In this document: in pieces, positions 1-57,166 of the stretch
Numbering within the stretch: the first letter of the stretch is position 1
How the letters are laid out: each line of letters opens with the position of its first letter
Program-made: the position numbers and the translations under genes
Notes under the pieces: generated by a model
The model's database searches: none
Seen by the model: only the letters and a program-made list of their open reading frames with translations
What the model was told of the DNA's origin: nothing
Assembly (NCBI GenBank): GCA_024235615.1
Contig: JACKMB010000001.1
Location: 992,001-1,056,000, forward strand
Source: Thauera sp.
Lineage (GTDB): Bacteria > Pseudomonadota > Gammaproteobacteria > Burkholderiales > Rhodocyclaceae
Length of the DNA stretch: 64,000 nt
Direction of reading: 5' to 3'

Positions 1-614
1 ATCGGCACCACGTGCGCGGCGCGCATGTAGTCCTCGACGCTCATCCCCTTCTTCGCGCACGGGTGGCTGGCCGCCACCAGGCACACGATCTCGTCCTCGA
101 GCAGCATCGACAGGTGCATGCGGTGCGGCGGTTCGGGCCAGTTGCCGATCACCACGTCCAGGTCCCCTTCCGCGAGCGAGCGCTCGAAGTCGAAGCTCGG
201 CCCCAGCGCGTGCAGGCTAAGGCGCGCCTGTGGCGCCTCGCGGCGGAAGCGCTCGGCCACGCTGGCGACGAACACCGGCGCCAGATAGTCGGGCGAGCCG
301 ACGCGGAACTCGTGCCGCGTGCTGTTCGGCTCGAAGGACTCGGGCGCGTCGGTCATGCGGTCGATCTCGGCGAGCGCGCCCTTGGCGTGCGACATCAGCG
401 CGAGCGCACGCTCGGTCGGCACCATGCCGCCCTTCTCCCGCACCAGCAGCGGATCGCCGAGGATCTCGCGCAGGCGCTTCAAGGCCGCGCTCACCGCCGG
501 CTGCGACTGGTTCAGGCGCAGCGCGGTGCGCGACACGCTGCGCTCGGTGATCAGGAGCACGAACACGCGCAATAGGTAGGTGTCGAGCGGGTCGTCGCTG
601 CGCCGCAGGCTCAT
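1..614 (-). CDS. LysR-family transcriptional regulator, C-terminus cut by window edge
   Basis: Reading the minus strand from an ATG at 614 gives about 204 residues. They begin with a LysR winged helix-turn-helix (around residues 10-65, including SRTALRLNQSQPAVSAALKR and GDPLLVREKG) and continue into the substrate-binding domain (VGSPDYLAPVFVASVAERF, then VVIGNWPEPP). The end of the protein lies beyond base 1. It is divergent from hiuH, with 181 bp between the starts, which is the usual arrangement for a LysR regulator and its target operon. Control of ureide and purine catabolism is therefore inferred from position; the ligand cannot be read from sequence. Confidence 0.85.
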   Translation of the reverse strand, partial: MSLRRSDDPLDTYLLRVFVLLITERSVSRTALRLNQSQPAVSAALKRLREILGDPLLVREKGGMVPTERALALMSHAKGALAEIDRMTDAPESFEPNSTRHEFRVGSPDYLAPVFVASVAERFRREAPQARLSLHALGPSFDFERSLAEGDLDVVIGNWPEPPHRMHLSMLLEDEIVCLVAASHPCAKKGMSVEDYMRAAHVVP

Positions 615-690
615 CGCGGGTCTCCTCGTCCTTGTCGTTATCCGGATGCGGGGCGAGGCCGGCTGCCCGCCACCGAAAAGATACGCGAGA

Positions 691-717
691 GCATATATCA
701 CATATAAGGACATATGC
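691..717. promoter_or_regulatory. Inverted repeat in the LysR-hiuH divergent intergenic region
   Basis: The AT-rich part of the 181-bp gap carries the arms GCATAT (691-696) and ATATGC (712-717) around an AT-rich centre. A short dyad between a LysR gene and its divergent neighbour is the usual place for a LysR operator. I could not assign a convincing -35/-10 pair for hiuH. The regulatory role is inferred. Confidence 0.35.
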
Positions 718-36969: not shown

Positions 36970-39504
36970 ATGGCGTACTTCCATCCGATCCACGCCCACT
37001 CCGCGCGGCGCAGCCTCGGCCTGCTCGCCATCGGCCTGGCGGGACTGATCGCGCTGTGGTGGGTTCCGACCCCGCCGGGGGTGGCCGGGCTGGCCCACTA
37101 CCTCCCGCTGCACATGGCGCTCGAGACGCTCGCGATCGTCGCCGCCGTGCTGGTTTTCGCGGTGGCCTGGCTCACCCCGGAGCGCAGCACGGCGGTCGGC
37201 ATGCGCATCCTCGCGTGCTGCTTCCTCGGCGTCGCGGTGCTGGACTTCAGCCACATGCTCTCGTACCAGGGGATGCCGGATTTCGTCACCCCGAGCAGCC
37301 CGGAGAAGGCGATCGACTTCTGGTTCGCCGCCCGCCTGCTCGCGGCGACCGGGATGCTGCTGGCGGCGTTGCTGCCCTGGCGGGGATGCCGCGGCGTCAC
37401 GCCCGGCCTCGTGCTGCTCGCGGTGGGCGCCTACGTGGGGCTGGCACACGCGCTCTTCCTGCTGCGGCCCGAATGGGCGCCACGGACCTTCATCGCCGGC
37501 GAGGGGCTGACCGCCTTCAAGGTCGGCGTCGAGATCGCCCTGACGCTGGCATTCGCCGCATCCGCCGCCGTGCTCGCCTGGCGCATGCGCAAACCCTGCG
37601 CCTTCGACGCGCCCGCCCTGCTCGGTGCGGCGGGCTGGATGGCCCTGAGCGAGCTGTTCTTCACGATGTACGCGGACGTCACCGACGTCTACAACCTCGC
37701 CGGCCACCTGTACAAGATCGGCGCGCACTACCTGCTCTTCCGCGCGCTGGTGGTCGACGGCATCCGCGCACCCTACGCGGCGCTCGAGCGCTCGCGCACC
37801 GAGCTCGCGGAGAACTCCTCACGGCTGACCGACGAACACCGCCGCCTCGAATCCATCCTGGCCGGCACCCGCGCCGGCACCTGGGAGTGGAACGTGCAGA
37901 CCGGCGAGACCATCTTCAATGCGCGCTGGGCGGAGATGCTGGGCTATCGCCTCGAAGAGCTCGAGCCGATCTCGATCGACACCTGGCGGCGCTTCGCCCA
38001 TCCGGACGATCTCGCCGACTCGGACGCCGCGATACACCGTCATCTTCGTGGCGAAACACCGTATTACGAGCACGAGTCCCGCATGCGCCATCGCGCAGGG
38101 CACTGGATCCGCGTGCAGGACCGCGGCGCGCTGCGCACCCTTACCGACAAGGGCGAGCCCGAATGGATGTTCGGCACCCATATCGACGTCAGCGACCGGC
38201 ATCGCGCGGAGCAGGAGCGCGGCGAGGCGCTGAACCGCCTGCGCCAGCTCTCGGACAGCGTGCCCGGCGTGCTGTTCGAGTGCCGCGTGGAAGCCGACGG
38301 CAGGATGGTTTTCCCCTACGTCGGCCGGCAGGTCGACGAGTTGATCGGCTGCCGAGCCGAGGACGTGGTGGACGACGCCACGGCGTTCTACGCCCGCCTG
38401 CATCCCGACGACCGTGCTCAGGTCATCGAGGAGGTCCGCCGCGCGAAGGACGCCCTGCAGGACTGGTCCGCGTCCTTCCGCGTCCTCCACCCCGTGCACG
38501 GCGAGCGCCGGATCCGTGGCGAGGCGCGCTGCCAGGCGCAGCCCGACGGCGCCGGCGAGTGGTTCGGCTACCTTCAGGACGAGACCGAGGCCCACCGGAA
38601 CCAGGAGTGGCTGCGCCTCTCCGCCCGCGTGTTCGACGCCAGCCAGGAGGGCATCCTGGTCACCGACGCCGAGGTCCGCATCGTCGACGCGAATCCGGCG
38701 ATGGAGGCACTGACCGGGTACGCCAGGGATGCGCTGCTCGGCCGCAACCCGAGCGTGCTCCGCTCGGGCCGGCACGACGCCGCCTTCTTCGCCGCGATGT
38801 ACACGAAGCTGCAGCATGACGGGCGCTGGCAGGGCGAGATGTGGAACCGGCACCGCTCGGGCGAGATCTACGTGGTCAAGGTTTCGATCTCCACCGTACG
38901 TGACGAGTCCGGGCGGATCGAGCATTACGTGGCCGTGTTCACCGACATCAGCAAGCTGATGGCGCAGCGCGACCACTTCAGCTCGCTCGCCAACTTCGAC
39001 GCCCTCACCGGCCTGCCCAACCGCCGCCTGCTCGAGGACCGCCTGCACCAGGCGGTGGGCAACGCGCGCCGCGGCAAGCATCTGGTGGTGTGCATGCTCG
39101 ACCTCGACGGCTTCAAGGCGGTCAACGACAGCGCCGGCCACGCCGAGGGCGACCGCCTGCTGATCGAGCTCGCACAGCGCATGCAGCACATCCTGCGCGC
39201 GGGCGAGACGCTGGCCCGCCTCGGCGGCGACGAGTTCGTCCTGCTGCTGGTGGACGGCGACTTCCGTCCGGCGCTCGAGCGTGTGCTCGAGGTGGCGCGC
39301 GCGCCGGTGGCGCTGTGCGGCGGCGGCTTCGCCCGCGTCACCGCGAGCATCGGCGCGAGCGCGTACCGGCACGGCGTCGAGGACGGCGCACAACTGCTGC
39401 GCGAGGCCGATCACGCCCTCTACCGCGCCAAGCGCGCTGGACGCAGCCGCTGGGTGATGTTCGCGCCGGAGGATGCGGCCGGGTCGGAGACGCCGCCGGC
39501 CTAG
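36970..39504 (+). CDS. MASE3-PAS-PAS-PAS-GGDEF diguanylate cyclase
   Basis: An 844-residue membrane protein. The N-terminal ~255 residues form about seven hydrophobic segments with MASE3 landmarks (HYLPLHMALETLAIV, LDFSHMLSYQGMPDF, FWFAARLL, VYNLAGHLYK). Three PAS domains follow (about 290-425, 425-550 and 555-675). The last is PAS/PAC with GYARDALLGRNPSVLRSGRH. A GGDEF domain follows with intact G752-G-D-E-F. The residues at the I-site position (RAGE) depart from RxxD, so product inhibition may be weak. There is no EAL. It sits 2 bp after a PDE-type gene, in one operon with opposite predicted activity. It ends convergently with leuE, sharing the CTAG at 39501-39504. Confidence 0.9.
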   Translation: MAYFHPIHAHSARRSLGLLAIGLAGLIALWWVPTPPGVAGLAHYLPLHMALETLAIVAAVLVFAVAWLTPERSTAVGMRILACCFLGVAVLDFSHMLSYQGMPDFVTPSSPEKAIDFWFAARLLAATGMLLAALLPWRGCRGVTPGLVLLAVGAYVGLAHALFLLRPEWAPRTFIAGEGLTAFKVGVEIALTLAFAASAAVLAWRMRKPCAFDAPALLGAAGWMALSELFFTMYADVTDVYNLAGHLYKIGAHYLLFRALVVDGIRAPYAALERSRTELAENSSRLTDEHRRLESILAGTRAGTWEWNVQTGETIFNARWAEMLGYRLEELEPISIDTWRRFAHPDDLADSDAAIHRHLRGETPYYEHESRMRHRAGHWIRVQDRGALRTLTDKGEPEWMFGTHIDVSDRHRAEQERGEALNRLRQLSDSVPGVLFECRVEADGRMVFPYVGRQVDELIGCRAEDVVDDATAFYARLHPDDRAQVIEEVRRAKDALQDWSASFRVLHPVHGERRIRGEARCQAQPDGAGEWFGYLQDETEAHRNQEWLRLSARVFDASQEGILVTDAEVRIVDANPAMEALTGYARDALLGRNPSVLRSGRHDAAFFAAMYTKLQHDGRWQGEMWNRHRSGEIYVVKVSISTVRDESGRIEHYVAVFTDISKLMAQRDHFSSLANFDALTGLPNRRLLEDRLHQAVGNARRGKHLVVCMLDLDGFKAVNDSAGHAEGDRLLIELAQRMQHILRAGETLARLGGDEFVLLLVDGDFRPALERVLEVARAPVALCGGGFARVTASIGASAYRHGVEDGAQLLREADHALYRAKRAGRSRWVMFAPEDAAGSETPPA

Positions 39505-40551: not shown

Positions 40552-41454
40552 TCATTGGCGCTGCGCGACGAACTCCAGCGGCGCATCGACCGAATGGCTG
40601 CGGCGGATCTGCAGGCGCACGCGCAGGGTCTCGCCTTCGCGCCAGACTTCATAGAGCTGGCCCATCTCGCGTGGCGGCTCGTCGCCGGATACGGTCTCGC
40701 TGCGGGTGAGGAAGCGCAGCCGGCCGTCGTCCCACTCCACTGCCTCGAGCACGCGCGGCACGCCGAGGAAGCTGGCGCTGCCGCCGATGCGGCCGTCCGC
40801 CAGCGTGAACACGTAGTGCTCGCGCAGCGTCAGGTTCCATGGATAGGCGACCTCGGCGCTCCATTCGCCGACGAGCGCCTGCGGCCCCCGGTCGGCACCC
40901 CGCAACCACCACCACCCGCCACCGAGCACGAGGAGCAGCGCCGCGATCGCGGCCGCAAGCGCCCGGCGTCCGCGCACCGGCTTCGAGGGCGCGGCCGGTT
41001 CCACCCATTGCGCCAGCGCGGCCTCCAGGCGGGCGAGCGCCGCGCGCCAGCCGGCGTCGCCGAGCGCAAGCGCGTTGCGGTTGGCCAGCCCGCGCAGTGT
41101 GGGCGGCAGCGCCTCGGCCGCCGGCATCGTCGCCCCGCCGACCAGCACCGGGATCAGGGGCTTGCCGGAGGCGAGCGCGAGCTCAACCTCGCGGCGCACG
41201 TAGTCGCCGGGATCGTCGAGCCGGCGCCCACGCTCGTCGCGCGCGTCGAGCCAGCGCGGCCCGATCACCACCAGCACCGCCTGCACCTGCTGCAGGGCCT
41301 GCTCGATGACCACGCCGAAGTCCGCCCCTGCGGCAATGTCGTCGACGTCGCGGAACACGCTGTCGGCGCCGAAGCGACGCTCGAGCGCATCGGTGAGCCG
41401 GCCGGCGAAGCCGGCGCTGTCGTCACGGCGGTAGGAGACGAAGACCTTGGACAT
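40552..41454 (-). CDS. TIR-domain protein with a transmembrane segment and a C-terminal beta-rich domain
   Basis: A 300-residue protein. Residues 1-135 are a bacterial TIR domain (KVFVSYRRDDSAGFAGRLTD, FRDVDDIAAGADFGVVIEQA, VLVVIGPRWLD). REVELA near residue 89 carries the glutamate expected of NAD+-cleaving TIRs. A hydrophobic stretch at about 165-183 (ending GGGWWWL) is followed by ~110 residues that look like a small beta-sandwich or lipocalin-like module (LVGEWSAEVAYPWNLTLREH). TIRs of this type serve in signalling or in abortive-infection defence; no defence partner gene is adjacent. It stands alone between two REP clusters. ATG 41454 gives the canonical TIR start. Confidence 0.85.
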   Translation of the reverse strand: MSKVFVSYRRDDSAGFAGRLTDALERRFGADSVFRDVDDIAAGADFGVVIEQALQQVQAVLVVIGPRWLDARDERGRRLDDPGDYVRREVELALASGKPLIPVLVGGATMPAAEALPPTLRGLANRNALALGDAGWRAALARLEAALAQWVEPAAPSKPVRGRRALAAAIAALLLVLGGGWWWLRGADRGPQALVGEWSAEVAYPWNLTLREHYVFTLADGRIGGSASFLGVPRVLEAVEWDDGRLRFLTRSETVSGDEPPREMGQLYEVWREGETLRVRLQIRRSHSVDAPLEFVAQRQ

Positions 41455-41525
41455 GGTGTCGCATCGGGGGGATTTCCTGCATTCAAGCACGCCCCCCGCC
41501 CCCACGCCACCCGCGCGGCCCGGTT

Positions 41526-41831: not shown

Positions 41832-43103
41832 TCAGGCGCCGCGGGCGTATTGCTCGAGGGCGGGGCCGATGGACGGGAGGGCGAGGATGCGGCTGGCGGC
41901 GCCGAGGCGGATGGCTTCCTTGGGCATGCCGAAGACGACCGAGCTGGCCTCGTCCTGGGCGATGGTCTGGGCGCCGGCGTCGAACATCTCGCGCAGGCCG
42001 CGGGCGCCGTCGTCGCCCATGCCGGTCATGATCACGCCGAGAGCGTTGCGCCCGGCGCAGCGGGCTACCGAGCGGAAGAGCACGTCGACCGAGGGGCGGT
42101 GGCGGTTGACCGGCGGGCCGTCGCGCACCTCGACGAGGTATTGCGCGCCGCTGCGCCGCAGCGTCATGTGGCGGCCGCCAGGGGCGATGAGCACGCGCCC
42201 GGGGATCACACGCTGACCGTCGCGGGCCTCGAGCACCTCGAGCGCGCACACCTGATCGAGGCGCTGGGCGAACATCGCGGTGAATTTCTCCGGCATGTGC
42301 TGGACCACGACGATGCCGGGCACCGTGCGCGGCAGGCCGCGCAGCACGACCTCGAGGGCCTGGGTGCCGCCGGTGGAGGTGCCGAGCGCGATGATGCGAT
42401 CGGTGGTCTCGGCCATCGCTTCGGCGCGCACCGGCGGCGCGGCCGCGGGCGCCGTCCCGGTCGCCGCGGCCAGGCGCGCAAGCGCGGTGCCGGTGGCGGC
42501 ACCGATGGCGGCGCCGGAACCCGAGGCCGTCCCTGCGCTCGCCCGCGGCCCGCCCGGGCCGGCGCCCGCCAGCCCGCGCGCAGGCACCACGCCGAAGCCC
42601 GAACCGGCAGCGGCAGCGGATTCGACTTCCGCACCCGCCCCCGCTCGGCCGCCTACCCCGCCCAACCCGACCCCTGCACCGGCCCGCAGCGCGCGCAGGT
42701 TCGCGCGCGCCGCGGCGCGCACGGCGGCGACGAGCTCCTGGGCGGAGTCGTTGAGGAAGCCCTTCAGCCCCAGCGTGGGCTTGGCGATGATGGAGACGGC
42801 GCCGGCGGCGAGCGCTTGCATGGTGGTCTCGGCGCCGCGCGAGGTGAGCGTGGAACATACGATCACCGGGGTCGGGCGCTCGGCCATGAGCTGGCGCAGG
42901 AAGCTGATGCCGTCCATGCGCGGCATCTCGACGTCGAGCGTGATGACGTCCGGCCAGTCGCGGCGCATCCTGGCCATGGCGAAGATCGGGTCGGAGGCGG
43001 TGCCGACGACCTCGATGCCGGGCGCAGCGGAGAGGATCTCGCTCATCACCTGGCGCACCACGGCGGAATCGTCGACGACGAGGACACGGATCGGAGCGGT
43101 CAT
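41832..43103 (-). CDS. cheB: Chemotaxis response regulator protein-glutamate methylesterase
   Basis: CheB removes methyl groups from chemoreceptors when phosphorylated by CheA. The 423 residues have a receiver domain with phospho-acceptor D57 ([12 protein letters not shown]) and a C-terminal esterase with S243 ([10 protein letters not shown]), H269 ([10 protein letters not shown]) and an aspartate in [10 protein letters not shown]. The linker between them (about 140-233) is unusually long and almost wholly Ala/Gly/Pro. It is the last gene of the che operon and its start overlaps cheD (ATGA). Confidence 0.95.
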
Positions 43104-43690
43104 GCGGCCTCGCTCGCGGCTTCAGAGGGTACTTCGCGGTCGGCTCCGGCACCGCCTTCGCCGTGCACGACCGCAGCGCTCGCCGCCGCCGGGGCGACGT
43201 GACGCAGCCAGACCTCGCCGCTGCCGATGTCGAAGATCAGGTTGCGGTGGCCCTCGCCCTCGACGTGCGCGGCGCGCACGCGAAAGCCGTGCGTGCGCAG
43301 CAGCGTGCGCGCGGCCTCGACGTTGCGCGTGCCGACGTCGAGCGCGGCGGGGCCGTCCGCGGCGTGGCGGGAGCGGAACATGCGCCCGCCGCCGAAGAGC
43401 TTGACCTGGTAATCCTGCGGCCGGGTGTGCGCGGCGCGCAGCTCGCGCAGGAAAAGTTCGATCGCGTCGCCGGCGTAGCGCCCGTCCAGGCCGTCGGCGT
43501 GCGCACGCGCGCCGCGCTCGGGCAGCATGAAGTGGCACATGCCGCCGATGCGCAGGCGCGGGTGCCACATCGTGATCGACACGCAGGAGCCGAGCAGGGT
43601 GCGGATGCGCGTGTCGCGGTCACCGAACCAGAACTCGCCGGGCTGCAGGAAGATCTCGATGGTGTTGCGCGCGGCCGGCCGCATGCTCAC
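43100..43690 (-). CDS. cheD: Chemoreceptor glutamine deamidase
   Basis: CheD deamidates specific receptor glutamines and can tune CheA output. The 196 residues hold the catalytic C36 ([13 protein letters not shown]) and H53 ([12 protein letters not shown]), then KLFGGGRMF and [13 protein letters not shown]. The start is taken at GTG 43690, overlapping the cheR stop (GTGA); ATG 43684 is nearly as good. The C-terminal ~35 residues are an alanine-rich tail. Confidence 0.93.
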
Positions 43691-44496
43691 ATCCGCCGGT
43701 AGATCGTCGGCCGCTCCTGGCGCAGGCCGAGGTCGAGGCCGTTGAGGCTCTCGGAGTGGCCGATGAACAGCCAGCCGCCCGGCCGCATCTGGCGCACGAT
43801 GCGCTCGACGATACGGCGCTTGGTGGGGAGATCGAAGTAGATGAGCACGTTGCGCAGGAAGACGACGTCGAACTCGCCGACGCCGGCGAGGTTGCCGTTG
43901 AGATTGACCTGGGCGAAGCGTACCCGCCGGCGCAGCGCCTCGTCGACCTGCAGCGTACCGTCGCGGCTGCCGACACCGCGCAGGCAGTAGCGCCGCAGGT
44001 AGTCGGGCGGGATGCCGTCGATGCGGTTCATCGTGTAGACGCCGCCGCGCGCCTTCTCCACCACCTCGCGGCTGATGTCCGAGCCGAACACTTCCCAGGG
44101 CGCCTCGCCGCCGAGGCGGTCGGCGAGCACCATCGCCAGGCTGTAGGCCTCCTCGCCGGAGGAGCTCGCCGCACTCCAGAAGCGCGGCGTGCGCGTGCGC
44201 CCGAGCGCGGGCAGCACGCTGTCGGCGAGAAAGTCGAAGTGCTTGGGCTCGCGGAAGAAGTAGGTCTCGTGGGTGGTGAGCAGGTCGACCATGCGCTCGA
44301 ACTCGTCGCGCGCCCCGGCACTCGACACCAGGCGGTGATACTCGCCGAAGCTGGCGAGCCCGAGCGCGCGCAGCCGCCGCGCCAGGCGGCCGCTGACCAG
44401 GCTGATCTTCTGCGGCGGCAGGTCGACGCCGGCGGTCTGGTGCATGAGCGCACGGAACTGCTCGAACTCGGCCTGGGTGATGCTGATCTCGGACAT
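43687..44496 (-). CDS. cheR: Chemotaxis protein methyltransferase
   Basis: CheR methylates receptor glutamates with S-adenosylmethionine. The 269 residues show the N-terminal helical domain (ISLVSGRLARRLRALG) and the methyltransferase domain with ETYFFREPKHF, FWSAASSSGEEAYSLAM, VFGSDISREVVEKARGGVYT, VVFLRNVLIYFD and the final GGWLFIGHSESLNG. It lies 23 bp after cheW and overlaps cheD. The upstream MCP ends in an aromatic pentapeptide that may dock this enzyme. Confidence 0.95.
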   Translation of the reverse strand: MSEISITQAEFEQFRALMHQTAGVDLPPQKISLVSGRLARRLRALGLASFGEYHRLVSSAGARDEFERMVDLLTTHETYFFREPKHFDFLADSVLPALGRTRTPRFWSAASSSGEEAYSLAMVLADRLGGEAPWEVFGSDISREVVEKARGGVYTMNRIDGIPPDYLRRYCLRGVGSRDGTLQVDEALRRRVRFAQVNLNGNLAGVGEFDVVFLRNVLIYFDLPTKRRIVERIVRQMRPGGWLFIGHSESLNGLDLGLRQERPTIYRRM

Positions 44497-44519
44497 GCGG
44501 ACCCTCCGGGGAGACCGGC

Positions 44520-45068
44520 TCAGTGCTCGGCGGCGCCGGCGAGCGCGCCGATGCCGGCGAGCTCGTCGATCGAGAACACCCGCCCGACCTCGAGCAGGAT
44601 CACGAAGCGCCCTTCGCGGCGCGCCATGCCGGCGATGAAGTCGGTGCGGATGCGGGCGCCGAAGGACGGCGCCGGCTCGATGTCGGCGGCGGCGATGTCG
44701 ATGACCTCGCTGACCCCGTCGACCATCACGCCGAGCGTCTGCGTGCCGGCGTCGCCGTTCACCTCGACGATGACGATGCAGCTGCGCCGCCCGCTGCGCA
44801 GGCGCTCGCGGCCGAAGCGCGCGGCGAGGTCGATCACCGGCACCACCGCGCCGCGCAGGTTGATCACCCCGCGCACGGTGGGCGGCGTCATCGGCACCTC
44901 GGTGAGCTCGCCGAATTCGATGATCTCACGGATCTGCAGGATGTCGATCGCGAACACCTCGCCGCCGAGCGTAAACACCAGGTACTGGCCGCCCGCGGCC
45001 GCGCCGGCGCGCAGCCCGGCCGCGGCGACCGGCGCCGGGGCGACCGTCTGAAGACTGGATTGCGTCAT
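44520..45068 (-). CDS. cheW: Chemotaxis coupling protein
   Basis: CheW joins CheA to receptor arrays. The 182-residue protein has a ~25-residue alanine-rich leader, then the CheW fold: QYLVFTLGGEVFAIDILQIR, PPTVRGVINLRGAVVPVIDL, and VSEVIDIAAADIEPAPSFG. Its length is slightly above the ~165 norm because of the leader. It lies 12 bp downstream of the MCP gene. Confidence 0.94.
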   Translation of the reverse strand: MTQSSLQTVAPAPVAAAGLRAGAAAGGQYLVFTLGGEVFAIDILQIREIIEFGELTEVPMTPPTVRGVINLRGAVVPVIDLAARFGRERLRSGRRSCIVIVEVNGDAGTQTLGVMVDGVSEVIDIAAADIEPAPSFGARIRTDFIAGMARREGRFVILLEVGRVFSIDELAGIGALAGAAEH

Positions 45069-45080
45069 GGCCGGCTCCGC

Positions 45081-46784
45081 TCAGAAGCGCACGTATTCCG
45101 GGTCCGCGGCGGCGGCGAAGGCCGGCTGCGGGTTGCCCAGGCCGATGCGGCGCGGCTCGCGCGTGGCGCGCGCGGGGGCCGCGTGGGCGCGGGCGGCGCG
45201 CGGGGCACCGCCGTCACCGCCGGCCTGCTGCGCCTGCAGGTCGAGGCGGAACTGCGCCACCAGGCGCTGCAGCTGCTCGGCCTGGCTGTTCATCTCCTCG
45301 GCGGTCGCCGACAGCTCCTCCGAGGCCGAGGCGTTCTGCTGCGTGGTCTGGCTGATCTGGCTCATGGCGATGTTGATCTGCCCCGCGCCGGCCGACTGTT
45401 CCTCGGACGAGGCGGTGATCTCCTGCACGAGCTCGGCGGTCTTGCGGATCGAGGGCACGATCTCCTCGAGCAGGGCACCGGCGCGCTCGGCCGTCTTGAC
45501 GCTGGAGCCGGCGAGCTCGCCGATCTCCTGCGCCGCGACCTGGCTGCGCTCGGCCAGCTTGCGCACCTCGGCCGCCACCACCGCGAAGCCCTTGCCGTGC
45601 TCGCCGGCGCGCGCCGCCTCGATCGCGGCGTTGAGCGCGAGCAGGTTGGTCTGGTAGGCGATGTCATCGACGATGCCGATCTTGTCGGCGATCGAACGCA
45701 TCGCCTCGACCGTCGCGCGCACCGCCTCGCCGCCCTCGTCGGCGTCGGCGGCGGACTTGCTCGCCATGCCGTCGGTGACGCGGGCGTTCTCGGTGTTCTG
45801 GCCGATCGAGGCGGACATCTGCTCGATCGAGGCCGAGGTCTCCTCGAGGCTGGCGGCCTGCTCGGAAGATCCCTGCGCCAGCGACTGCGAGGTCGCGCTC
45901 ACCTGCTCGGAGGCTGCGGACAGGGCGTCGGCCGCGCCGCGCACCTCGCCCAGGGTCTGCGACAGGCTGCCCACCATGCGCTGCATCCCCGCGAGCAGGC
46001 TGATGTTGTCCCCGGCGCGCAGCTGCACGTCCACCGTGAGATCGCCGGCGGCGACCTTGCGTGCGATCTCCGCCGCATAGTCGGGCTCGCCGCCGAGCTG
46101 GCGCAGCAGCCCGCGGGTGATCAGCATGGCCACCAGGACACCCGCCAGCAGCGCGATGCCGCCCAGCACGGACATGGTCAGCGTGGCCGTGGCGACGGTC
46201 TCGGCGGTCTCGCTGCCGGTGCCGGTGAGCAGCTCGCCCTGGTAGGCGGTCAGCGCGTTGACGCGCTGGCGGTACTGCACCGCGATGGCATCGTAGTCGC
46301 CACGCAGGTAGGCGCGCGCCTCGTCGCTGCGGCCCTGCTCGACGAGCTCGACGAGGCGGTTCTGCGCCGGGATGAAGCGCTGGCGGCTGTCGAGCACCTC
46401 GGCGAAGAGCTCCTTGCCGCGCGGCTGCACCAGCATCGGCCCGAGCGCGTCCCAAGCCTTGCCGATGCGCTCGCGCCCGCCGAGCATGCGATCCTTGGCG
46501 CGCTGGATCTGCTCGCCGTTCTCGGCGATCACCAGCTCGCGCCCGCCCATGGCGATCTCGTTCACCCCGACCAGGCCGTCCTGCAGCAGCTGGTTCTTGG
46601 GCCAGAGCTCGTTCACCACCACGTCGACATCGCGCTTGATGTCGGTCAGCCGCAGGACGCCCACCGCAAGCAGCGTCCCCAGCAGGACCAGCACGAGACC
46701 GAAGCCCAGCCCCAGCTTCACACCCACCTTCATGTTTCCGAACATTTTCATTCCCCTGTTTCCGTTTTCTTCAACAGCATTCAT
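45081..46784 (-). CDS. Methyl-accepting chemotaxis protein with periplasmic 4-helix-bundle domain
   Basis: A 567-residue receptor. It has transmembrane segment one (about 22-43), a ~160-residue periplasmic four-helix-bundle-type sensor ([20 protein letters not shown]), transmembrane segment two (about 203-225) and HAMP. The cytoplasmic hairpin carries the invariant tip [20 protein letters not shown] and [17 protein letters not shown]. The C-terminus EYVRF fits the x-aromatic-x-x-aromatic tether that binds CheR/CheB. The start at 46784 overlaps the cheA stop (ATGA); ATG 46751 is an alternative that removes 11 residues. The ligand is unknown. Confidence 0.92.
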
Positions 46785-48970
46785 GCAGCGAGGAAGCGCG
46801 CCCGCGGCGCGCCCCCGGTGTCGCGGCCCTCGTGCGCGATCGCACGCTGGACCAGTTGTGGCACATCCAGGATCAGCGCCACCTCGCCGCTACCCAGGAT
46901 GGTGGAGCCGGCGATGCCGGCGACGCGCTCGAAGAGCGGCCCGAGCGGCTTGATCACCGCCTGGCATTCGCCGAGCAGGCGGTCCACCGCGATCCCCGCC
47001 TGGCGCCCGCCGAAGCGCACCACCACGACGTTCTGCCGCGCCGGCGGCACGCCCTCGAGACCGAACAGTGCGCGCAGGCGCAGGAAGGGCAGGACCTGGC
47101 CGCGCAGGTCGAGGTAGCCGTCGGCGCCGGCACTCGCCGGCAGCTCGATGCACTCGACCACCGCGTCGAGCGGCAGGATGAAGGTGGAGCCGGCGACGCC
47201 GACCTGGAAGCCGTCGATGATCGCCAGCGTGAGCGGCAGGCACAGCCGCATCGTGGTGCCCTGCCCCGGCGCGCTGAGGATGTCGAGGCTGCCGCGCAGC
47301 GCATCCACGCTGCTCTTGACGACGTCCATGCCGACGCCGCGGCCGGACAGGCTGGTAAGCTCGGCCGCGGTGGAGAAGCCCGGCGCGAGGATCAGGCGGT
47401 GGATCTCGGCCTCGGAGAGCACGGCCTCGGGCGCCACCAGGCCGCGCTCGACGGCCTTGGCGAGGATGCGCTGCGCATCCAGCCCGCCGCCGTCGTCGGC
47501 GACCTCGATGACGATGCTGCCGGACTCGTGGAACGCGCGCAGCTCGAGCCGGCCACGCGCCGGCTTGCCCGCCTCGGCGCGGCGCGCGGGCGATTCGATG
47601 CCGTGGTCGAGGGCGTTGCGCACGAGGTGCATGAGCGGGTCACCGATCTTCTCGACCATGGACTTGTCGAGCTCGGCCTCGGCGCCGCGGATCACCAGCT
47701 CGATGTCCTTGCCGAGCTCGCGCGCGAGGTCGCGCACCACGCGCGGGAAGCGGTTGAAGACCTCGCCGATCGGGGTCATGCGCAGGCGCAGCGCGGCGTC
47801 GCGCACGTCCTCGACCAGGCGCAGCAGGTTGGCGGCGGTCTCCTGCAGCGCGCGGCTGCCGGCCTGCTGCGCCTGCAGCTGGGTGGCGGCGCCGGCGATC
47901 ACGAGCTCGCCGACCTGGTCGATGAGGGCATCGAGGCGGTCGGCGGGCACCTTGACGCTGCGCGTCTCGCTCGCGCGCCGGTCCTCGGCGGCCTTCTGCT
48001 TGCCGAGCGCGGCCTGCACCACCTGGGCGGGCACGCCGGCCTGCTCGACGAGCAGCTCGCCCACGCGCGGCGCCTCGGCCTGCGCGTGCTGGGCGGCGAG
48101 CGCGGCCTCGAGCTCGCGCGCGGTGACCGAACCGCAGGCCACGAGGATCTCGCCGAGCCGGCGCGGGTCCTCGTCGAGCGCCTCGATGAGGGCGAGGTAC
48201 TCCTCGACGTGCGCCGCCGGCGGCACCAGCACAATGCGCGCGCTGTCCTGCACGAACTCGAACACCGATTCGATCTCGGCGCGCGTGGCTGCGCTGCGCA
48301 GCGCGATCTCGAAGCCGAGGTAGCAGCACTCCGGATCGCCGGTGGCGAGCTCGGGGAGGGCGTCGGCGATCGTCTCGACGTGCACCAGATCGCCGAGCGT
48401 GCGCAGGTAGTGGATGAAGGCGAGCGGATCCATGCCGTTCTTCAGCACCTCGGGCGCGAAGCGCAGCGACAGGTGCCAGTGCTCGGCGCCGAGTGCCACG
48501 CCGCCGCCGACGTCGATCGCGGACGCAGCTGCGGGTGCCGCACCGACGGCCACCGCCCCCTCCTCCAGCGTCGCCGGCAACGCGGCAGGCGTGGCGCAGA
48601 AGGCTTCGAGGCGGGCGCGCAGCGGTGCGCCCTCGAATTCCGGCAGGGGCGCCTCGGCGGCGACCGCGGCGACGAGGCCGGCGATGTGGTCCTGCGACTC
48701 GAGCAGCAGGTTGATGAGGGCGTCGGAGAGTTCGAGCTCGCCGTTGCGCATGCGGTCGAGCACGCTCTCGACGGCGTGGGTGAAGTGCACCACCGCGTCC
48801 AGCCCGAACAGGCCGGCCGAGCCCTTGATGGTGTGGGCGCAGCGGAACAGCGCATGCAGCTCGTCGGTGGGCAGCGCGGCGGTCTCGGCGCGCAGGAGGA
48901 TCTCCTCCATCTGCGCGAGCAGCTCGCGGCTCTCGTCGAGGAAGGTGGCCAGGGCCTGGGAGAGGTCCAT
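46781..48970 (-). CDS. cheA: Chemotaxis histidine kinase CheA with an MshEN-like insert
   Basis: CheA phosphorylates CheY and CheB in response to receptors. The 729 residues have an Hpt domain (H46 in [11 protein letters not shown]) and a region at about 165-325 in place of an ordinary P2. Then come dimerisation (about 335-400), the HATPase ([38 protein letters not shown]) and the CheW-like domain. Within the insert, residues 271-294 and 302-325 are two 24-residue repeats ([10 protein letters not shown]...Q and [11 protein letters not shown]...Q) like the c-di-GMP-binding MshEN motif. Its ATG shares one base with the STAS stop. No CheZ or flagellar gene is in the window. Confidence 0.95.
47996..48160 (-). 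other. Two tandem 24-residue MshEN-like motifs inside CheA
   Basis: CheA residues 271-294 begin [10 protein letters not shown] and end LEAALAAQ; residues 302-325 begin [11 protein letters not shown] and end VQAALGKQ. Each is exactly 24 residues, separated by seven. The MshEN c-di-GMP receptor domain is two 24-residue motifs of the RLGxxLxxxG...LxxALxxQ form with a short spacer. The match is by eye; binding is not shown. Confidence 0.55.
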
Positions 48971-49320
48971 CAGCGTGTCTCCTGCGTGGCGGGCGCGGCA
49001 TCCTCGAGCAGCGGGTCGCCGAGCGCGCTGCCGAGGCGGGCGAGGTCGAGCAGGCGCAGCACCGCGGCGGAGTGGTTGACGAAGCGCACGCTGCGCCCGG
49101 CGCTGCGCTTGGCCATCAGCATGAGCTGCAGGCCGGCGGTATCGATCTCGTCGATGCGGCCGAGGTCCACCTCGAGCGCTTCGTGGGTGGAGAGCGCCTG
49201 CAGCCAGGTCTCGCGCAGCGCGGCCACGGTGTAGATGCCGAGCTCGCCTTCGGGGGCGAGGCGGGCGAGGCCGTCGGCGGGGGTGTCCAGGGCGGGGATA
49301 TCCATGGTCGGCACGCTCAC
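48970..49320 (-). CDS. STAS-domain protein (anti-sigma-factor-antagonist-like)
   Basis: A 116-residue single STAS domain: RLAPEGELGIYTVAALRETW, a strand with LEVDLGRIDEIDTAGLQLML, and HSAAVLRLLDLARLG. The phosphorylatable residue would be T61 in DTAG, matching the DSxG-type site. STAS proteins near cheA occur in several betaproteobacteria and may link the Che kinase to a partner switch, but the role here is unknown. The start is GTG 49320, overlapping the cheY stop (GTGA). Confidence 0.85.
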   Translation of the reverse strand: MSVPTMDIPALDTPADGLARLAPEGELGIYTVAALRETWLQALSTHEALEVDLGRIDEIDTAGLQLMLMAKRSAGRSVRFVNHSAAVLRLLDLARLGSALGDPLLEDAAPATQETR

Positions 49321-49682
49321 ATCACCAGCTTGGACACCGCCGCCAGCATCTGCTGCGGCTGGAAGGGCTTGACCACCCAGGCGCGCGCGCCGGCCTCCTG
49401 GCCGAGGCGCTTCTTCTCTTCGGCGGCCTCGGTGGTGAGCATGATCACCGGGGTGAACTTGTAGCTCGGGTTCTTCTTGACCTCGCGCACGAAGGCGATG
49501 CCGTCCATGTTGGGCATGTTCACGTCGGAGATGATGAGGTGAACCTTCTGGCCACCGAGCTTGCCGAGGGCGTCGCGGCCGTCGCAGGCCTCGATGACCT
49601 GGTAGCCGGCGCCCTTGAGCGACAGGCTCACCACCTGGCGCAGCGAGGCGGAGTCGTCGACGATCAGCACGGTCTTGGACAT
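49317..49682 (-). CDS. cheY: CheY-like response regulator
   Basis: A 121-residue stand-alone receiver with acidic pair D9-D10, phospho-acceptor D53 (ISDVNMPNMDG), T83/T84 and K105 (WVVKPF). It is the classical output of CheA. It lies between an MCP gene and the STAS gene. The output could be a flagellar motor or type IV pili; no target gene is present in the window. GAGTAATCCCCC precedes the ATG, a weak ribosome-binding site. Confidence 0.92.
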   Translation of the reverse strand: MSKTVLIVDDSASLRQVVSLSLKGAGYQVIEACDGRDALGKLGGQKVHLIISDVNMPNMDGIAFVREVKKNPSYKFTPVIMLTTEAAEEKKRLGQEAGARAWVVKPFQPQQMLAAVSKLVM

Positions 49683-49698
49683 GGGGGATTACTCCTGC

Positions 49699-50919
49699 TC
49701 AAAAGAAGGTGATGTCGCCACCGGCCGGAGCGGGGTTCGCGTCGGCGCGGCGTGCGTGTTGTTCGAGGGTGGTGTAGGTGCGCTCGAGCGCGGCGATCCA
49801 GGCGGCGACGTCGATCGGCGCCGGCACCCGCCCGCCGGCGAGACGGGCCTCGTCCTCGGCGACCTGGGCGGTCAGGCGCGCCATGTCGGTGCGCACCGCC
49901 TCGAGGATCTGGCTGACGCGATCCTGGAACTGGAGCTGCACCAGCACGCCCTCGATGCGGGACTGCACCGCGGCGCTGTCTTCCTCGAGCGCGCGCGCGG
50001 CCTGCGCCATGGCGCTGCCGACCCGGTCGAAGCGCGCGACCACGCTGCCGATGGCAGCCTCGGAGTCGCGCACCAGGACGGCGTCGCCGCGAGCCATGTG
50101 CTCGGCCGCGGCGAGCGCCTCGGCCATCGCGGCGTGGGCGCTCTCGACCTTGGCGCGGATGCGCTCGCCGGTGGCGCCGGAGAGGTCGGAGAGCTTGCGC
50201 ACCTCGTCGGCGACCACCGCGAAGCCGCGCCCCACCTCGCCGGCGCGCGCGGCCTCGATCGCCGCGTTGAGCGCGAGCAGGTTGGTCTGCTTGGCGATCT
50301 CGCCGACCTCGCTCGCCATGCGCATCAATTCCTCGGTGACCTGGGCGAGTCGGGCGACCGCCTGCGACAGGCTCTGCTTCTCGGCGAGCGCGGCGTTGAG
50401 CCCGGCGAGCACGCGGTCGAGCTCGCCGCGGGCGTAGCCGATCACCCCGACCACGCTGTCCTCGCCGCTGTCGGCGGTGGCCTGGCGCGAGCGCAGCAGC
50501 GCGTGCTGCAGCCCTTCGAGGATGTTCGCGAACTCGTCCGCGAGCGTGCCCACGGCGGTCTCGGTGTGGCTGCGCGAGATGCCCACGTGGTCGTGCCAGC
50601 GCTCCAGCGCCGCCTGCGCCACCTGCTGCAGGCTCGCAAGATAGGCCTCGCGCTCGGCCAGGCGCGCACGCTCGGCCTCGCCGAGGCGCGCCACGGCGGC
50701 GGCCTGGCCCGCGCGCTGGCGGCGCAGCATCGACCACGGCAGCACGAAACCGGCCACGCCGACGCAGACCGCTGCGGCGACGCCTGCCACGCCCGGCACG
50801 AGCAGGCCGAGCAGCAGCGCACCGGCCAGCCCGGGGGCGGCGTGCACGGCCAGGGGCAGGAGCTGCGAATCCGTCGGGGCGGGAGTCTGGGGAGCTTGGG
50901 ACACTTGGGCGTTCTCCAT
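49699..50919 (-). CDS. Methyl-accepting chemotaxis-like protein lacking a periplasmic sensor domain
   Basis: About 406 residues from ATG 50919; a GTG at 50991 would add 24 residues. Two adjacent hydrophobic segments (about 24-60) form a membrane hairpin with almost no periplasmic part. The MCP signalling tip [20 protein letters not shown] and [20 protein letters not shown] follow. There is no HAMP, and the cytoplasmic region is short. It ends GGDITFF. It probably senses an internal or membrane signal. It is the first gene of the leftward che operon, 16 bp before cheY. Confidence 0.88.
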
Positions 50920-51095
50920 TGTTGCCGTGCTCGCCTTGCGACGGCGGGGCGATTCGTCTGCCTTCCGGACCTCGCTCACGGAACATTCCACGCGAAGATG
51001 GACCCAATCCGGGGAGTGCCGTTAACATCCGGGCCCACCGCGCATTTGCCGGCGACATGCACTTTCTTTGCATGCATCATCCCGGTATGGGGCGT

Positions 51096-51186: not shown

Positions 51187-52692
51187 GTGCTGATCCGCAG
51201 GCAGCAATGGGCGATCGCGATCGCCTCGCTGATCACCATCGTGGTGGTAAGCGGACTGTGGATCGCGAACAACCTGGCCTTGCGCGCCGAGCTCGAGCGC
51301 GCCCGCATGGCGTCGCAGATCGGGCCGGTGGGGGCCGCGCAGATGCGTGCGCGCATCTTCGAGTTCCTCGCCCAGCCCTCGCCGGCGGCGCGGGAGCGCT
51401 GGTACGAGAGCCACCGGGCGCTCGGCACACTGCTGGCACCCGCACTGATGGACGGCACCCCCGGTGAGCCGATCATCGCGGACCTGCGTGCACGCCACGC
51501 AGAACTGCCGGCGCTGTTCGAGGCGCTCGCCGCCGATCGCCTGCGCGAGGTCGCAGGCAGCGCGCCCACGCCCGAGCTGCTGGATGCGCAGCGCCTCGCC
51601 TCCGTCCATTTCATGGACGTGACGCAGCAGGTGGCCGGCGAAACCCTGCGCCTGCTCGATCTGAGCCAGGCGCGGCTGGAAGGCCTGCACGCCGATCAGG
51701 AGCGCCTGATCGGTGGCCTCATCCTCGCCCTGGCGCTGGTGATCGGGCTCGAGCTCTTCCTGGTGCACCGCCGCATCCTCAAACCCCTGCAGGAGCTGCA
51801 CGAGGGCGCGCGTGCGATCGAGACGGGCCACTACGAGCACCGCCTCGGCATGGACGGCAAGGACGAGATCGCGGAGCTCGGCGCACAGTTCGACCACATG
51901 GCCGACGCGCTCGGCGAGACCCTGCAGGCCCTGCACCAGCAGCGCAGCCAGCTCGAAGTCGCCAACCGCGAGCTGGAGAGCTTCAGCTACTCGGTGTCGC
52001 ACGACCTGCGCGCACCGCTGCGCGGCATCGGTGGCTGGGCGCAGGCGCTCGAGGAGGATCATGGCGGTACGCTGCCCGCGGAGGCGCAGGAATACCTCAC
52101 GCGCATCCGCGGCGAGTGCGCGCGCATGAACCTGCTCATCGAGGATCTGCTACAGCTGGCGCGCGTCACCCGCGGCGACCCGGTATTCGAATGGCTGGAG
52201 CTCGATCTGCTCGCCCGCGAGGTGGCCGAGCGCGTGCGCGAGAGCTGGCCGGGGCGCGACATCGAGTTCGCGATCGCCCCGGGGCTGAGGGTGTGGGGCG
52301 ACCGCAGCCTGCTCGGGATCGCCCTCGCCAACCTGTTCGACAACGCCTGCAAGTTCACGGCGCGCGTGCCGCGGGCGCACATCGAGCTCGGTCTCCGGGA
52401 GCTCGTCGATGCCCCCGGCGGGCGCAGCCTGCAGCAGTACTTCGTGCGCGACAACGGCGCGGGCTTCGACATGAAGCACGCGGCCCGGTTGTTCGTCCCC
52501 TTCCAGCGCATGCACTCGCAGCGCGAGTTTCCCGGCACCGGCATCGGGCTGGCGATCGTGCAGCGCATCATCCAGCGCCATGGTGGCACACTGGAGGCCG
52601 AGGCCAGTCCGGGCGAGGGCGCCTGCTTCCGCTTCACCCTGCCGCTGCTGCCCGGCCCGCCGGCCCCTCCACCGAACGGAACGCCAACATGA
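51187..52692 (+). CDS. Membrane sensor histidine kinase (HAMP-HisKA-HATPase)
   Basis: A 501-residue kinase. It has transmembrane segments at about 8-28 and 174-194, a ~145-residue helical periplasmic domain, HAMP (about 195-247) and HisKA with H272 in SVSHDLRAPLRG. HATPase_c has NLFDNACKFT, RDNGAGFD and GTGIGLAIVQRI. The DHp type is like those of phytochrome-family kinases. The start is GTG 51187. No receiver follows within the gene; three receiver-containing genes lie immediately downstream and are the likely phosphate acceptors. Confidence 0.92.
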   Translation: MLIRRQQWAIAIASLITIVVVSGLWIANNLALRAELERARMASQIGPVGAAQMRARIFEFLAQPSPAARERWYESHRALGTLLAPALMDGTPGEPIIADLRARHAELPALFEALAADRLREVAGSAPTPELLDAQRLASVHFMDVTQQVAGETLRLLDLSQARLEGLHADQERLIGGLILALALVIGLELFLVHRRILKPLQELHEGARAIETGHYEHRLGMDGKDEIAELGAQFDHMADALGETLQALHQQRSQLEVANRELESFSYSVSHDLRAPLRGIGGWAQALEEDHGGTLPAEAQEYLTRIRGECARMNLLIEDLLQLARVTRGDPVFEWLELDLLAREVAERVRESWPGRDIEFAIAPGLRVWGDRSLLGIALANLFDNACKFTARVPRAHIELGLRELVDAPGGRSLQQYFVRDNGAGFDMKHAARLFVPFQRMHSQREFPGTGIGLAIVQRIIQRHGGTLEAEASPGEGACFRFTLPLLPGPPAPPPNGTPT

Positions 52693-55027: not shown

Positions 55028-57166
55028 ATGGGCGAGACCGTCAATCTGCTGATCGTCGAGGACAACGAATCCGATGCCGCGCTGGTGGTACGCCAGCTCG
55101 AGCGCGCCGGCTATACGGTGGCGACCGCGCGCCGCGTCGATCGCGCCGCGGAGTTCGGTGCCGCCCTCGGGGCCTGCGCGTGGTCGGCGGTGCTGTGCGA
55201 CTACGCCCTGCCCGGCTTCAGCCCCGAGGAGGCGCTCGCCCAGGTACAGGATAGCGGGCTGGACCTGCCCTTCCTGGTCGTCTCGGCCTCGCTCGGCGAC
55301 GAGGACGCCGGCCGCCTGATGGCGCTCGGCGCGCACGACTACGTGCACAAGCACGACCTCGCGCGCCTCGCCCCGGCGCTGGCGCGCGGCCTGGCCGAGG
55401 CACGCGAGCGCCGGGCCCGCCGCCACGCCGAGGACGGTCTGCGCGCGCGCGAAGCGCACCTGCGCATCTGGAGCGAGGTGGTCGAGGGCCTGAGCGAGGG
55501 CATCGTGGTCACCAACCTCGCCGGCGACATCCTCGACTGCAACCCGGCCTTCGAGCGCATCACCGGCTACGCCCGTGCGGAAGTGCTCGGGCTGAACCCG
55601 CGCATCCTGAAGTCCGGCCGCCATGACGCCGCCTTCTACGCCGGCATGTGGGACGCGCTGGTCACCCGCGGCTCGTGGGTGGGCGAGGTATGGAATCGGC
55701 GCAAGAGCGGCGAGGTCTACCCCGAGCGCCTGGCCTTGCGCGCGGTGCACGGCGCCGACGGCCTGCCCACGCACTACGTGGGCATGTTCAGCGACCTCAG
55801 CCGCGAGAAGCAGGACCAGGCCCGGCTCGACTACCTGACCCAGCACGACCCGCTCACCGGCTTCGCCAACCGCCAGCTCTTCATGGAACGCCTGGAGCAG
55901 GCGATCGAGCGCGCCGCCGCCGGCGAGGGCAAGGCCGCGGTGCTGCTGCTCGACCTCGATCGCTTCCGGCGGGTGAACGAGAGCCTCGGCCAGGACGCCG
56001 GCGACCGCCTGCTGCAGGCCATGGCCGAGCGCATCGCCGGCTGCCTGAGGCGGCGCAGCAGCCTCGCCCGCCTGGGCAGCGACGAGTTCCTCATGCTGAT
56101 CACCGAGTTCGCCGACGCGGACGCGCTGGCGGCGCTTGCGCGGCGCATCCTCGACGAGATCGCCCGTCCGCTGACGATCAACGGCCAGGTCCTGCACATG
56201 AGCGCGAGCCTGGGCATCAGCGTCCATCCCCAGGACGGCGCCGACGCCGAGCACCTCCTGCATGCGGCCGAGGCCGCGCGCGCGCAGATCCGCCACGGCC
56301 TGGGCAACCGCCTGCACTTCTTCACCCCCGGCATGGACACGCGCGCGCGGCGCTGGATCGCGGTCGAGAGCGAGCTGCGCCACGCGCTCGCGCGCGGCGA
56401 GCTGCAGCTCTACTACCAGCCGATGGTGTGCGTGCGCGACGGCCGCGTGCGCACCGTGGAGGCGCTGCTGCGCTGGAACAGCCCGGCGCTGGGCTGGGTG
56501 TCGCCGGCGGAGTTCATCCCGGTGGCCGAGGAGAGCGAGCTCATCGTGGCGATCGGCGACTGGGTGCTGGAGACCGCATGCCGCCAGGTCCGCCACTGGC
56601 AGGACACCGGCCTGCCGCCGATCCGCGTGGCGGTGAACGTCTCCGCACACCAGCTCGCGAGCGGCCGCCTGCCCGAGCGCGTGCGCGAGGTCCTGGAGGG
56701 CACGGGCATCGACCCCGGCCAACTCGAGATCGAGCTCACCGAGAGCGCGATGATGACGGACAGCGAGCACAGCGCGCGCCAGGTCGAGGCGATCAGCCGC
56801 ATGGGGGTGAGCGTCTCGCTCGACGACTTCGGCACCGGCTACTCCTCGCTCGCCTACCTCAGCCGCTTCGCGCTCACCAAGCTGAAGATCGACCGCAGCT
56901 TCGTCGACGGCCTGACGAGCGATCCGAAGAGCTCGATCATCGTGGATGCAACCCTGGGCCTGGCGCGCGGCCTCGGCCTGCGCGTGGTCGCCGAGGGCGT
57001 GGAGACGGAGGCGCAGCGCGCGCTGCTCGCCGCCGCCGGCTGTGATGCGCTGCAGGGCTACCTGTTCAGCCCGCCGGTGGCGCCGGCCGCCCTCGGCGCG
57101 CTCATCGACCGCTTCGCGCCGGCCGAGCGCTACGCGAAGCCGAGGGTGTTCGCCGTCAGCGCCTGA
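55028..57166 (+). CDS. REC-PAS-GGDEF(degenerate)-EAL response regulator, likely c-di-GMP phosphodiesterase
   Basis: A 712-residue soluble protein. It has a receiver (about 5-120; phospho-acceptor D58 in LCDYALPGF) and PAS (about 145-260; NPAFERITGYARAEVLGLNP). The GGDEF domain carries GSDEF (350-354) in place of GGDEF. The EAL domain has E478-A-L-L-R-W, NVSAHQLAS, ELTES, DDFGTGYS, KIDRSFVDG and AEGVE. The expected output is c-di-GMP hydrolysis controlled by phosphorylation. Its receiver is clearly paralogous to that of the 52703-54238 kinase (DSGLDLPFLVVSASLGDE against ASGLDLPFIVVSGTIGDE). It is 99 bp downstream of the NarL-type regulator. Confidence 0.9.
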   Translation: MGETVNLLIVEDNESDAALVVRQLERAGYTVATARRVDRAAEFGAALGACAWSAVLCDYALPGFSPEEALAQVQDSGLDLPFLVVSASLGDEDAGRLMALGAHDYVHKHDLARLAPALARGLAEARERRARRHAEDGLRAREAHLRIWSEVVEGLSEGIVVTNLAGDILDCNPAFERITGYARAEVLGLNPRILKSGRHDAAFYAGMWDALVTRGSWVGEVWNRRKSGEVYPERLALRAVHGADGLPTHYVGMFSDLSREKQDQARLDYLTQHDPLTGFANRQLFMERLEQAIERAAAGEGKAAVLLLDLDRFRRVNESLGQDAGDRLLQAMAERIAGCLRRRSSLARLGSDEFLMLITEFADADALAALARRILDEIARPLTINGQVLHMSASLGISVHPQDGADAEHLLHAAEAARAQIRHGLGNRLHFFTPGMDTRARRWIAVESELRHALARGELQLYYQPMVCVRDGRVRTVEALLRWNSPALGWVSPAEFIPVAEESELIVAIGDWVLETACRQVRHWQDTGLPPIRVAVNVSAHQLASGRLPERVREVLEGTGIDPGQLEIELTESAMMTDSEHSARQVEAISRMGVSVSLDDFGTGYSSLAYLSRFALTKLKIDRSFVDGLTSDPKSSIIVDATLGLARGLGLRVVAEGVETEAQRALLAAAGCDALQGYLFSPPVAPAALGALIDRFAPAERYAKPRVFAVSA

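Follow-up and report, generated by a model that had tools for sequence, protein, structure and literature searches.

A predicted c-di-GMP-binding MshEN domain between the P2 and P3 domains of a Thauera chemotaxis kinase, CheA, and its conservation in related kinases

Introduction

The known inputs of c-di-GMP to chemotaxis act mostly through adaptor proteins, receptors or the motor. The PilZ adaptor MapZ provides such an input via a methyltransferase, and Tlp1 and Cle are further examples. Among histidine kinases, ShkA of Caulobacter is gated directly by c-di-GMP, in competition with a DDR-motif loop.

In the MshEN domain of MshE, as described in passages of Wang et al. 2016 (PMC5013675), the arginine of each motif stacks on a guanine, leucine residues cluster hydrophobically against the bases, the glycine at the third position hydrogen-bonds through its backbone, and the glutamine that ends the motif binds ribose and phosphate. 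One clause of the same source names CheA and CheX among the MshEN-associated proteins, and this domain combination is the same as that of the CheA considered here (PMC5013675, in the portion available); the MshEN-CheA fusion is not new and is already in print. We found no experiment on an MshEN-CheA in the open-licence literature, and what is described here is the conservation of the domain in relatives, its placement between P2 and P3, the variation of its spacer and its probable repeated loss.

The GSPII domains of PilF are among the closest known systems. According to sections of PMC11731258, GSPII-B binds c-di-GMP tightly without the arginine, binding is abolished when both glutamines are changed, and the first helix unwinds by a turn when the ligand binds; proline is the sole deviation named in those sections for GSPII-C, whose affinity for c-di-GMP is similar to that of MshEN. 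The natural GSPII-A keeps the fold and does not bind, owing to sequence deviations and packing, and in its rebuilt form isoleucine in place of leucine at the last two hydrophobic contacts of motif II carries a cost of ~2.4-fold (PMC12002112, in excerpts). Because GSPII-A does not bind, the MshEN fold alone is no proof of binding.

Results

The CheA and its chemotaxis gene cluster

The CheA gene lies in a 64,000-nucleotide stretch of Thauera sp. DNA (the window), as the fourth of nine genes in a che cluster (Table 1). The four domains expected of a CheA, namely Hpt, P3, HATPase and CheW-like, all score above the Pfam cut-off, and H46, within the sequence HTIKG, is invariant across 50 aligned CheA rows. 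The genome encodes additional CheA-type kinases besides that of the cluster. With its STAS gene, the gene order resembles that of F7 clusters as laid out in passages of PMC7184735, yet differs from it. A STAS gene is also annotated adjoining cheA in Aeromonas, Pseudomonas and Xanthomonas plasmid clusters (L005-L007; such labels denote individual loci). Flanking the cluster, a gene for a TIR-domain protein (40555-41505, minus strand) lies directly downstream of cheB, and one for a HAMP-HisKA-HATPase sensor kinase (51187-52692, plus strand) lies just upstream on the opposite strand.

A preliminary description of this DNA had placed two consecutive 24-residue motifs, resembling those of MshEN, in CheA, the first at residues 271-294 and the second at 302-325, with a gap of seven residues. 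These coordinates are exact, and the location given for the pair, 47996-48160, agrees with the mapping of residues onto the window. The insert was also rightly assigned to the region between Hpt and the dimerisation domain; more precisely, it stands between a P2-like domain and P3.

Table 1. Features of the window discussed in the text (positions in the window; residues in CheA)
Feature	Position in window	CheA residues	Strand	Basis
che cluster, nine genes, CheA the fourth	41832..50991		-	Pfam, ORFs
MCP (gene 1)	50991-49699		-	Pfam
CheY-type receiver (gene 2)	49682-49317		-	Pfam
Single-domain STAS (gene 3)	49320-48970		-	one-base overlap with cheA start
CheA histidine kinase, 729 aa (gene 4)	46781..48970		-	ORF and Pfam domain matches
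CheA Hpt/P1		6-95		Pfam, above cut-off
CheA P2-like domain		about 163-250		full-length AlphaFold model and alignment
CheA predicted MshEN_N domain		271-325		NF053729, motif sequence
MshEN motif I	48089..48160	271-294	-	sequence, NF053729
Spacer HAQAEAP, 7 residues	48068..48088	295-301	-	sequence
MshEN motif II	47996..48067	302-325	-	sequence
Predicted four-helix bundle	47963..48157	272-279, 284-296, 303-310, 315-336	-	AlphaFold
CheA P3 (dimerisation)		337-395		Pfam, above cut-off
CheA HATPase		444-581		Pfam, above cut-off
CheA CheW-like		588-709		Pfam, above cut-off
MCP (gene 5, after CheA)	46784-45081		-	Pfam
CheW (gene 6)	45068-44520		-	Pfam
CheR (gene 7)	44496-43687		-	Pfam
CheD (gene 8)	43690-43100		-	Pfam
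CheB (gene 9)	43103-41832		-	Pfam
GGDEF protein 1	14179-14673		-	domain match
GGDEF protein 2	31909-32379		+	domain match
GGDEF protein 3	35678-36169		+	domain match
GGDEF protein 4	38989-39450		+	domain match
GGDEF protein 5	55841-56296		+	domain match

Profile searches identify an MshEN_N-like domain

NF053729, the 53-position NCBIfam model of the MshE c-di-GMP-binding motif (MshEN_N), spans the region over positions 1-53 of 53 with E = 2.1e-7 (30.6 bits) on the whole CheA and E = 5e-9 (35.8 bits) on the insert alone, both scores lying below the curated cut-off of 38. At E up to 0.01, all 53 motif-bearing related inserts are matched by the same model (best E = 2.3e-15), as is one of nine inserts without the motifs. 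Scanning five whole relatives placed L013 (41.3 bits, 69% identity to the window CheA), L057 (45.5 bits) and L060 (51.0 bits) above the curated cut-off, and L005 (31.0 bits) and L067 (24.7 bits) under it. A second HMM, whose 12 sequences were grown from a single seed and came solely from MshEN proteins other than CheA in related genomes, scored the window insert at 28.9 bits and the 53 CheA inserts at 17.7-55.1 bits, with none of 49 other stretches of the window CheA above 3.7 bits. The profile match anticipated by the preliminary description is thus found with both models, though for the window CheA it falls under the curated cut-off of NF053729.

A chance likeness of an alanine- and leucine-rich helical linker to the motif has some circumstantial points on its side, in that the region is compositionally biased, the unrelated Pfam family DUF4388 weakly matches 35 of the 53 inserts, and one of the nine motif-less inserts reaches 18.6 bits in the non-CheA HMM. 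However, 4000 shuffled inserts never exceeded 11.2 bits in that HMM against the 28.9 bits of the real one, NF053729 matched none of ten shuffled inserts and all 53 relatives, and the evidence from fold and selection given below speaks against it as well. A chance or compositional origin of the motifs is ruled out by the shuffles and the relatives, and we give it next to no credence.

The Pfam MshEN model (PF05157) matched neither the window CheA, nor any of the 53 inserts, nor the CheA locus of the genome itself. It likewise fails to match the 66 residues that hold both motifs in an MshEN of the ATPase type (L109, the one sequence tested), for which reason its silence on CheA is not counted as a refutation; the model may cover mainly the C-terminal subdomain. 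Pfam-based surveys may overlook stand-alone MshEN_N domains, and the failure of this model in all 53 relatives may explain why the CheA domain has drawn scant attention so far. Taken with the predicted structure, the profile matches identify CheA 271-325 as a predicted MshEN_N domain, MshEN_N being the half of MshEN that binds c-di-GMP.

Contact residues, spacer and predicted fold

The ligand-contact residues, whose loss had been named as a reason to abandon the proposal, are largely kept. Motif I carries the consensus at all six contact positions (R271, L272, G273, L287, L291 and Q294), and motif II retains four of six (R302, G304, L322 and Q325), with V303 and V318 in place of leucine, for 10 of 12 contacts in both motifs together. 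The preliminary description had remarked that the glycine of motif II is shifted by one and that the spacer is longer than in MshEN, so that binding could be lost. Both observations hold: the turn glycine of motif II is displaced to 312, giving Ala-Gly instead of the consensus Gly-hydrophobic, and the spacer has seven residues instead of the five that characterise MshEN_N.

The worry about binding itself is eased to different degrees. Regarding motif II, it is eased by binders without the first arginine, namely PilF GSPII-B and GSPII-C in the accessible sections of PMC11731258. Regarding the spacer, it is eased only in part, as the first two motifs of GSPII-C likewise stand seven residues apart but are followed by a third motif, five residues on and with glutamate instead of glycine at its third position in the PDB-search alignment, so that the seven-residue spacer of GSPII-C may not be the relevant one. 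In the PDB search, a spacer of seven residues is also seen in the aligned PilB chains 5zfr, 6olj and 5tsg. Judged from these alignments, a seven-residue spacer is compatible with the MshEN fold and likely permits binding, and neither the longer spacer nor the shifted glycine would exclude c-di-GMP.

With an E limit of 10, a profile of the CheA inserts matched 15 distinct sequences in the PDB. Fourteen were MshEN- or GSPII-bearing PilF, PilB or MshE (best E = 6.7e-21), and the fifteenth was a designed protein (E = 0.24); PilF GSPII-C was the top-scoring single domain. AlphaFold predicts the insert as a four-helix bundle with a mean pLDDT of 93.7, the structure expected of an MshEN domain. When the model was compared with the PDB by Foldseek, two of 16 matches had a probability of 1.00, both of them c-di-GMP-bound PilF GSPII-B (rmsd 2.0 and 1.1 Å, E = 0.20 and 0.25), and none of the remaining matches had a probability above 0.07; such weak E-values are expected for a short helical domain. 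The structure alignments held 50 rows, with L067 and the plasmid rows L005 and L006 omitted. In the AlphaFold model of full-length CheA (mean pLDDT 83.9, pTM 0.52), one short helix separates P2 from the first bundle helix, and a gap of about six residues divides the end of the fourth helix, at 336, from the start of the P3 helix, at 343.

Conservation and selection in related kinases

Searches for CheA covered 61 genomes of the family, 274 of the class and 29 of the genus, with at most 30 loci taken per search. From 64 loci with a CheA match, some of them on plasmids, omission of the window's own gene (L009) and a paralogue (L008) left 62 homologues, in 53 of which both motifs are present (L061 having a shortened form) and in nine of which the domain is absent. 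Across the 53, the contact residues G273 (53/53), Q294 (51/53), G304 (52/53) and Q325 (53/53) are near-invariant, and the first arginine occurs less regularly, with R271 in 37 and R302 in 12; the first position of motif II is proline in 21. Valine replaces leucine at 318 in 51 of the 53, and valine at 303, as in the window, is found in just three; the turn glycine of motif II stands at 311 in 17. Mean entropy is lowest over the 12 contact positions (0.81 bits) and rises through 1.09 at core and 1.91 at other motif positions to 3.36 in the spacer, and contact differs from other motif positions with p = 0.002 (Mann-Whitney, not corrected for the relatedness of the sequences). The spacer ranges from 2 to 23 residues, and the canonical five are found in three distant CheAs (L057, L059 and L060).

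Within the genus, a close orthologue is present in 20 of 29 genomes, and all 20 keep both contact glycines and both glutamines. Against the two nearest relatives the dN/dS of the domain is 0.215, a value that rests on only five synonymous and three other changes in each comparison and lies inside the range of the folded domains, with the linker 126-160 at 0.59 and 0.55. Comparison with four less close members of the genus gave 0.33-0.44, the domain exceeding every folded domain for L129 and not for the other three. Purifying selection on the domain is supported by these comparisons, as are, by the results above, its identity, its fold and the conservation of its contact residues.

Among the loci examined, 25 families are represented by the full-length form. 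It also appears on plasmids, where 453 records have a whole-CheA match; of three plasmids examined, those of Aeromonas sp. BC14 and Pseudomonas sp. HR96 have the form and that of Xanthomonas sacchari does not. Searching plasmids with the insert alone (tblastn) gave one weak match. In a phage collection, ten records (MT835847.1 and others) resemble CheA, none covering 80% of the query, and they are possibly bacterial DNA in phage assemblies.

Short forms and loss of the domain

A search of the phylum with an MshEN-plus-P3 profile (349 genomes) gave matches spanning both domains in at least 54 genomes including that of the window, at least 10 of them in the class and at least 44 outside it. Twenty of the outside-class genomes were examined (L079-L098), and all of them carry a short form. 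In 4 the motif I glutamine is present and the spacer is a single residue; in 16 both that glutamine and the spacer are missing, motif II and its glutamine being kept. In a kinase-core tree of 91 rows, one of them an outgroup and one duplicate row having been dropped, the 21 short forms (L079-L098 and L061) make up one clade, which apart from L061 lies outside the window's class, and the nine domain-less CheAs require five changes. A first tree had used some columns of the domain itself, and the kinase-core repeat returned the same change counts; both trees come from quick searches whose only branch support is SH-aLRT, and long branches, L058 among them, are flagged in the first. In that first tree, the domain-less L007, L051, L058 and L062 nest among full forms, the place of L058 on its long branch being unsure. 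Remnants persist in two of them: in L051 the greater part of motif I together with the end of motif II, in L062 the end of motif II alone. From these placements, the domain was probably lost several times, and the short forms and domain-less CheAs indicate that it can decay or go.

This pattern bears on the reading in which the MshEN fold serves as a structural spacer, or for docking, between P2 and P3 and has lost c-di-GMP binding. Precedents for non-binding MshEN domains are given in portions of two papers, for XpsE/GspE of Xanthomonas (PMC5013675) and PilF GSPII-A (PMC12002112), so degenerate MshEN domains are known; the weak motif II, a spacer of such variable length, the 16 of 20 short forms in the sister clade that lack the motif I glutamine with the sequence signal still present, and the absence of the domain from 9 of 62 homologues all fit it. 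Against it, the ligand-contact glycines and glutamines are near-invariant among the 53 relatives when many neighbouring helix positions vary freely, and motif I of the window agrees with the consensus at every contact. We consider loss of binding a less probable account, if one to be taken seriously. The alternative that we prefer is that the CheA domain binds c-di-GMP, which these contact residues make reasonably probable; the preliminary description's proposal of an MshEN-like insert in CheA is borne out as to the predicted domain and its potential for binding.

Discussion

A candidate c-di-GMP input to the chemotaxis kinase

The ligand is very probably made in the cell, as judged from the 36 GGDEF matches above cut-off in the genome (37 listed). 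Five GGDEF/EAL proteins had been reported near CheA; five GGDEF proteins are indeed encoded in the window, three of them with EAL as well. Since these five are part of a genome total of 36, they speak for general c-di-GMP signalling rather than a private link to CheA.

The domain is placed between the CheY/CheB-docking P2 and the dimerisation helices of P3, which its fourth helix nearly reaches in the model. We propose that c-di-GMP from the many diguanylate cyclases of the cell would bind and order the bundle, which would hold a single c-di-GMP with one guanine in each motif. The bound bundle would then alter the tethering of the P1-P2 arm to the dimerised kinase core, and either end could pass on the change, the first helix following P2 and the last leading into P3. 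Phosphate flow from CheA to CheY and CheB would in this way be tuned, most likely downwards, at high c-di-GMP. The inhibitory sign is a guess, made because c-di-GMP usually acts against motility. We regard the domain, ligand binding and tether mechanism as a whole as the best explanation, with confidence only somewhat above even; that c-di-GMP controls the CheA kinase, taken by itself, we put forward tentatively, as a reading of the domain's position.

The domain might instead bind c-di-GMP and leave kinase activity unaffected, acting on the placement of CheA, array assembly, the access of CheY and CheB to P2, or a non-flagellar pathway. The domain adjoins P2, and with a STAS gene in the cluster and additional CheA-type kinases in the genome, a flagellar output is not a given; passages of PMC7184735 likewise describe early (stage 1 and 2) F7 systems of unclear function with anti-sigma-factor-antagonist genes. 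In the full-length model, however, only the short stretch between the fourth helix and P3 intervenes, and such close coupling would favour an effect on the kinase core. We hold an effect apart from kinase activity to be unlikely.

If the control of kinase activity that we propose extends beyond this protein, c-di-GMP would directly gate a large proteobacterial clade of CheA kinases, acting on an MshEN domain located after P2 and ahead of P3. The messenger would set the gain of the kinase, changes in the spacer and in motif II would tune affinity, and loss of the domain would leave a plain kinase. This wider picture is possible, and we advance it with somewhat more reserve than control of the one kinase. 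A site inside CheA, if real, would link the swim-or-settle messenger to the central chemotaxis kinase within one protein. The domain is small and separable, and its two conserved glutamines should report on binding.

Comparison with known systems

In MapZ, Tlp1 and Cle, the c-di-GMP signal is carried by a PilZ adaptor, a receptor or a receiver protein and not by CheA. ShkA-type control uses a DDR-motif loop rather than an MshEN domain, and ShkA is not a chemotaxis kinase. CckA of Caulobacter is likewise a c-di-GMP-gated histidine kinase other than a chemotaxis kinase, with its site in the CA domain and not in an MshEN domain (PMC7288161, in the part available).

Thermus PilF (6f8l, 8pkz and 9glg) differs from CheA in being a pilus traffic ATPase, and it carries three consecutive GSPII domains. 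Its GSPII-B is the best structural match of the CheA insert. GSPII-C shares with the window CheA the seven residues between the first two motifs and a valine at the same position of motif II, and its motif II starts with proline, as do those of the 21 CheAs noted above.

With the MshEN domain of Vibrio cholerae MshE (5htl), the predicted CheA domain shares the tandem 24-residue motifs, the contact glycines and glutamines and the four-helix bundle. It differs in having a spacer of seven residues where MshE has five and in the exchange of two motif II contact leucines for valine. The CheA domain stands directly before P3 with no sign of an MshEN_C subdomain, and its host differs as well, the domain lying in the interior of a histidine kinase in CheA and at the N-terminus of an ATPase in MshE.
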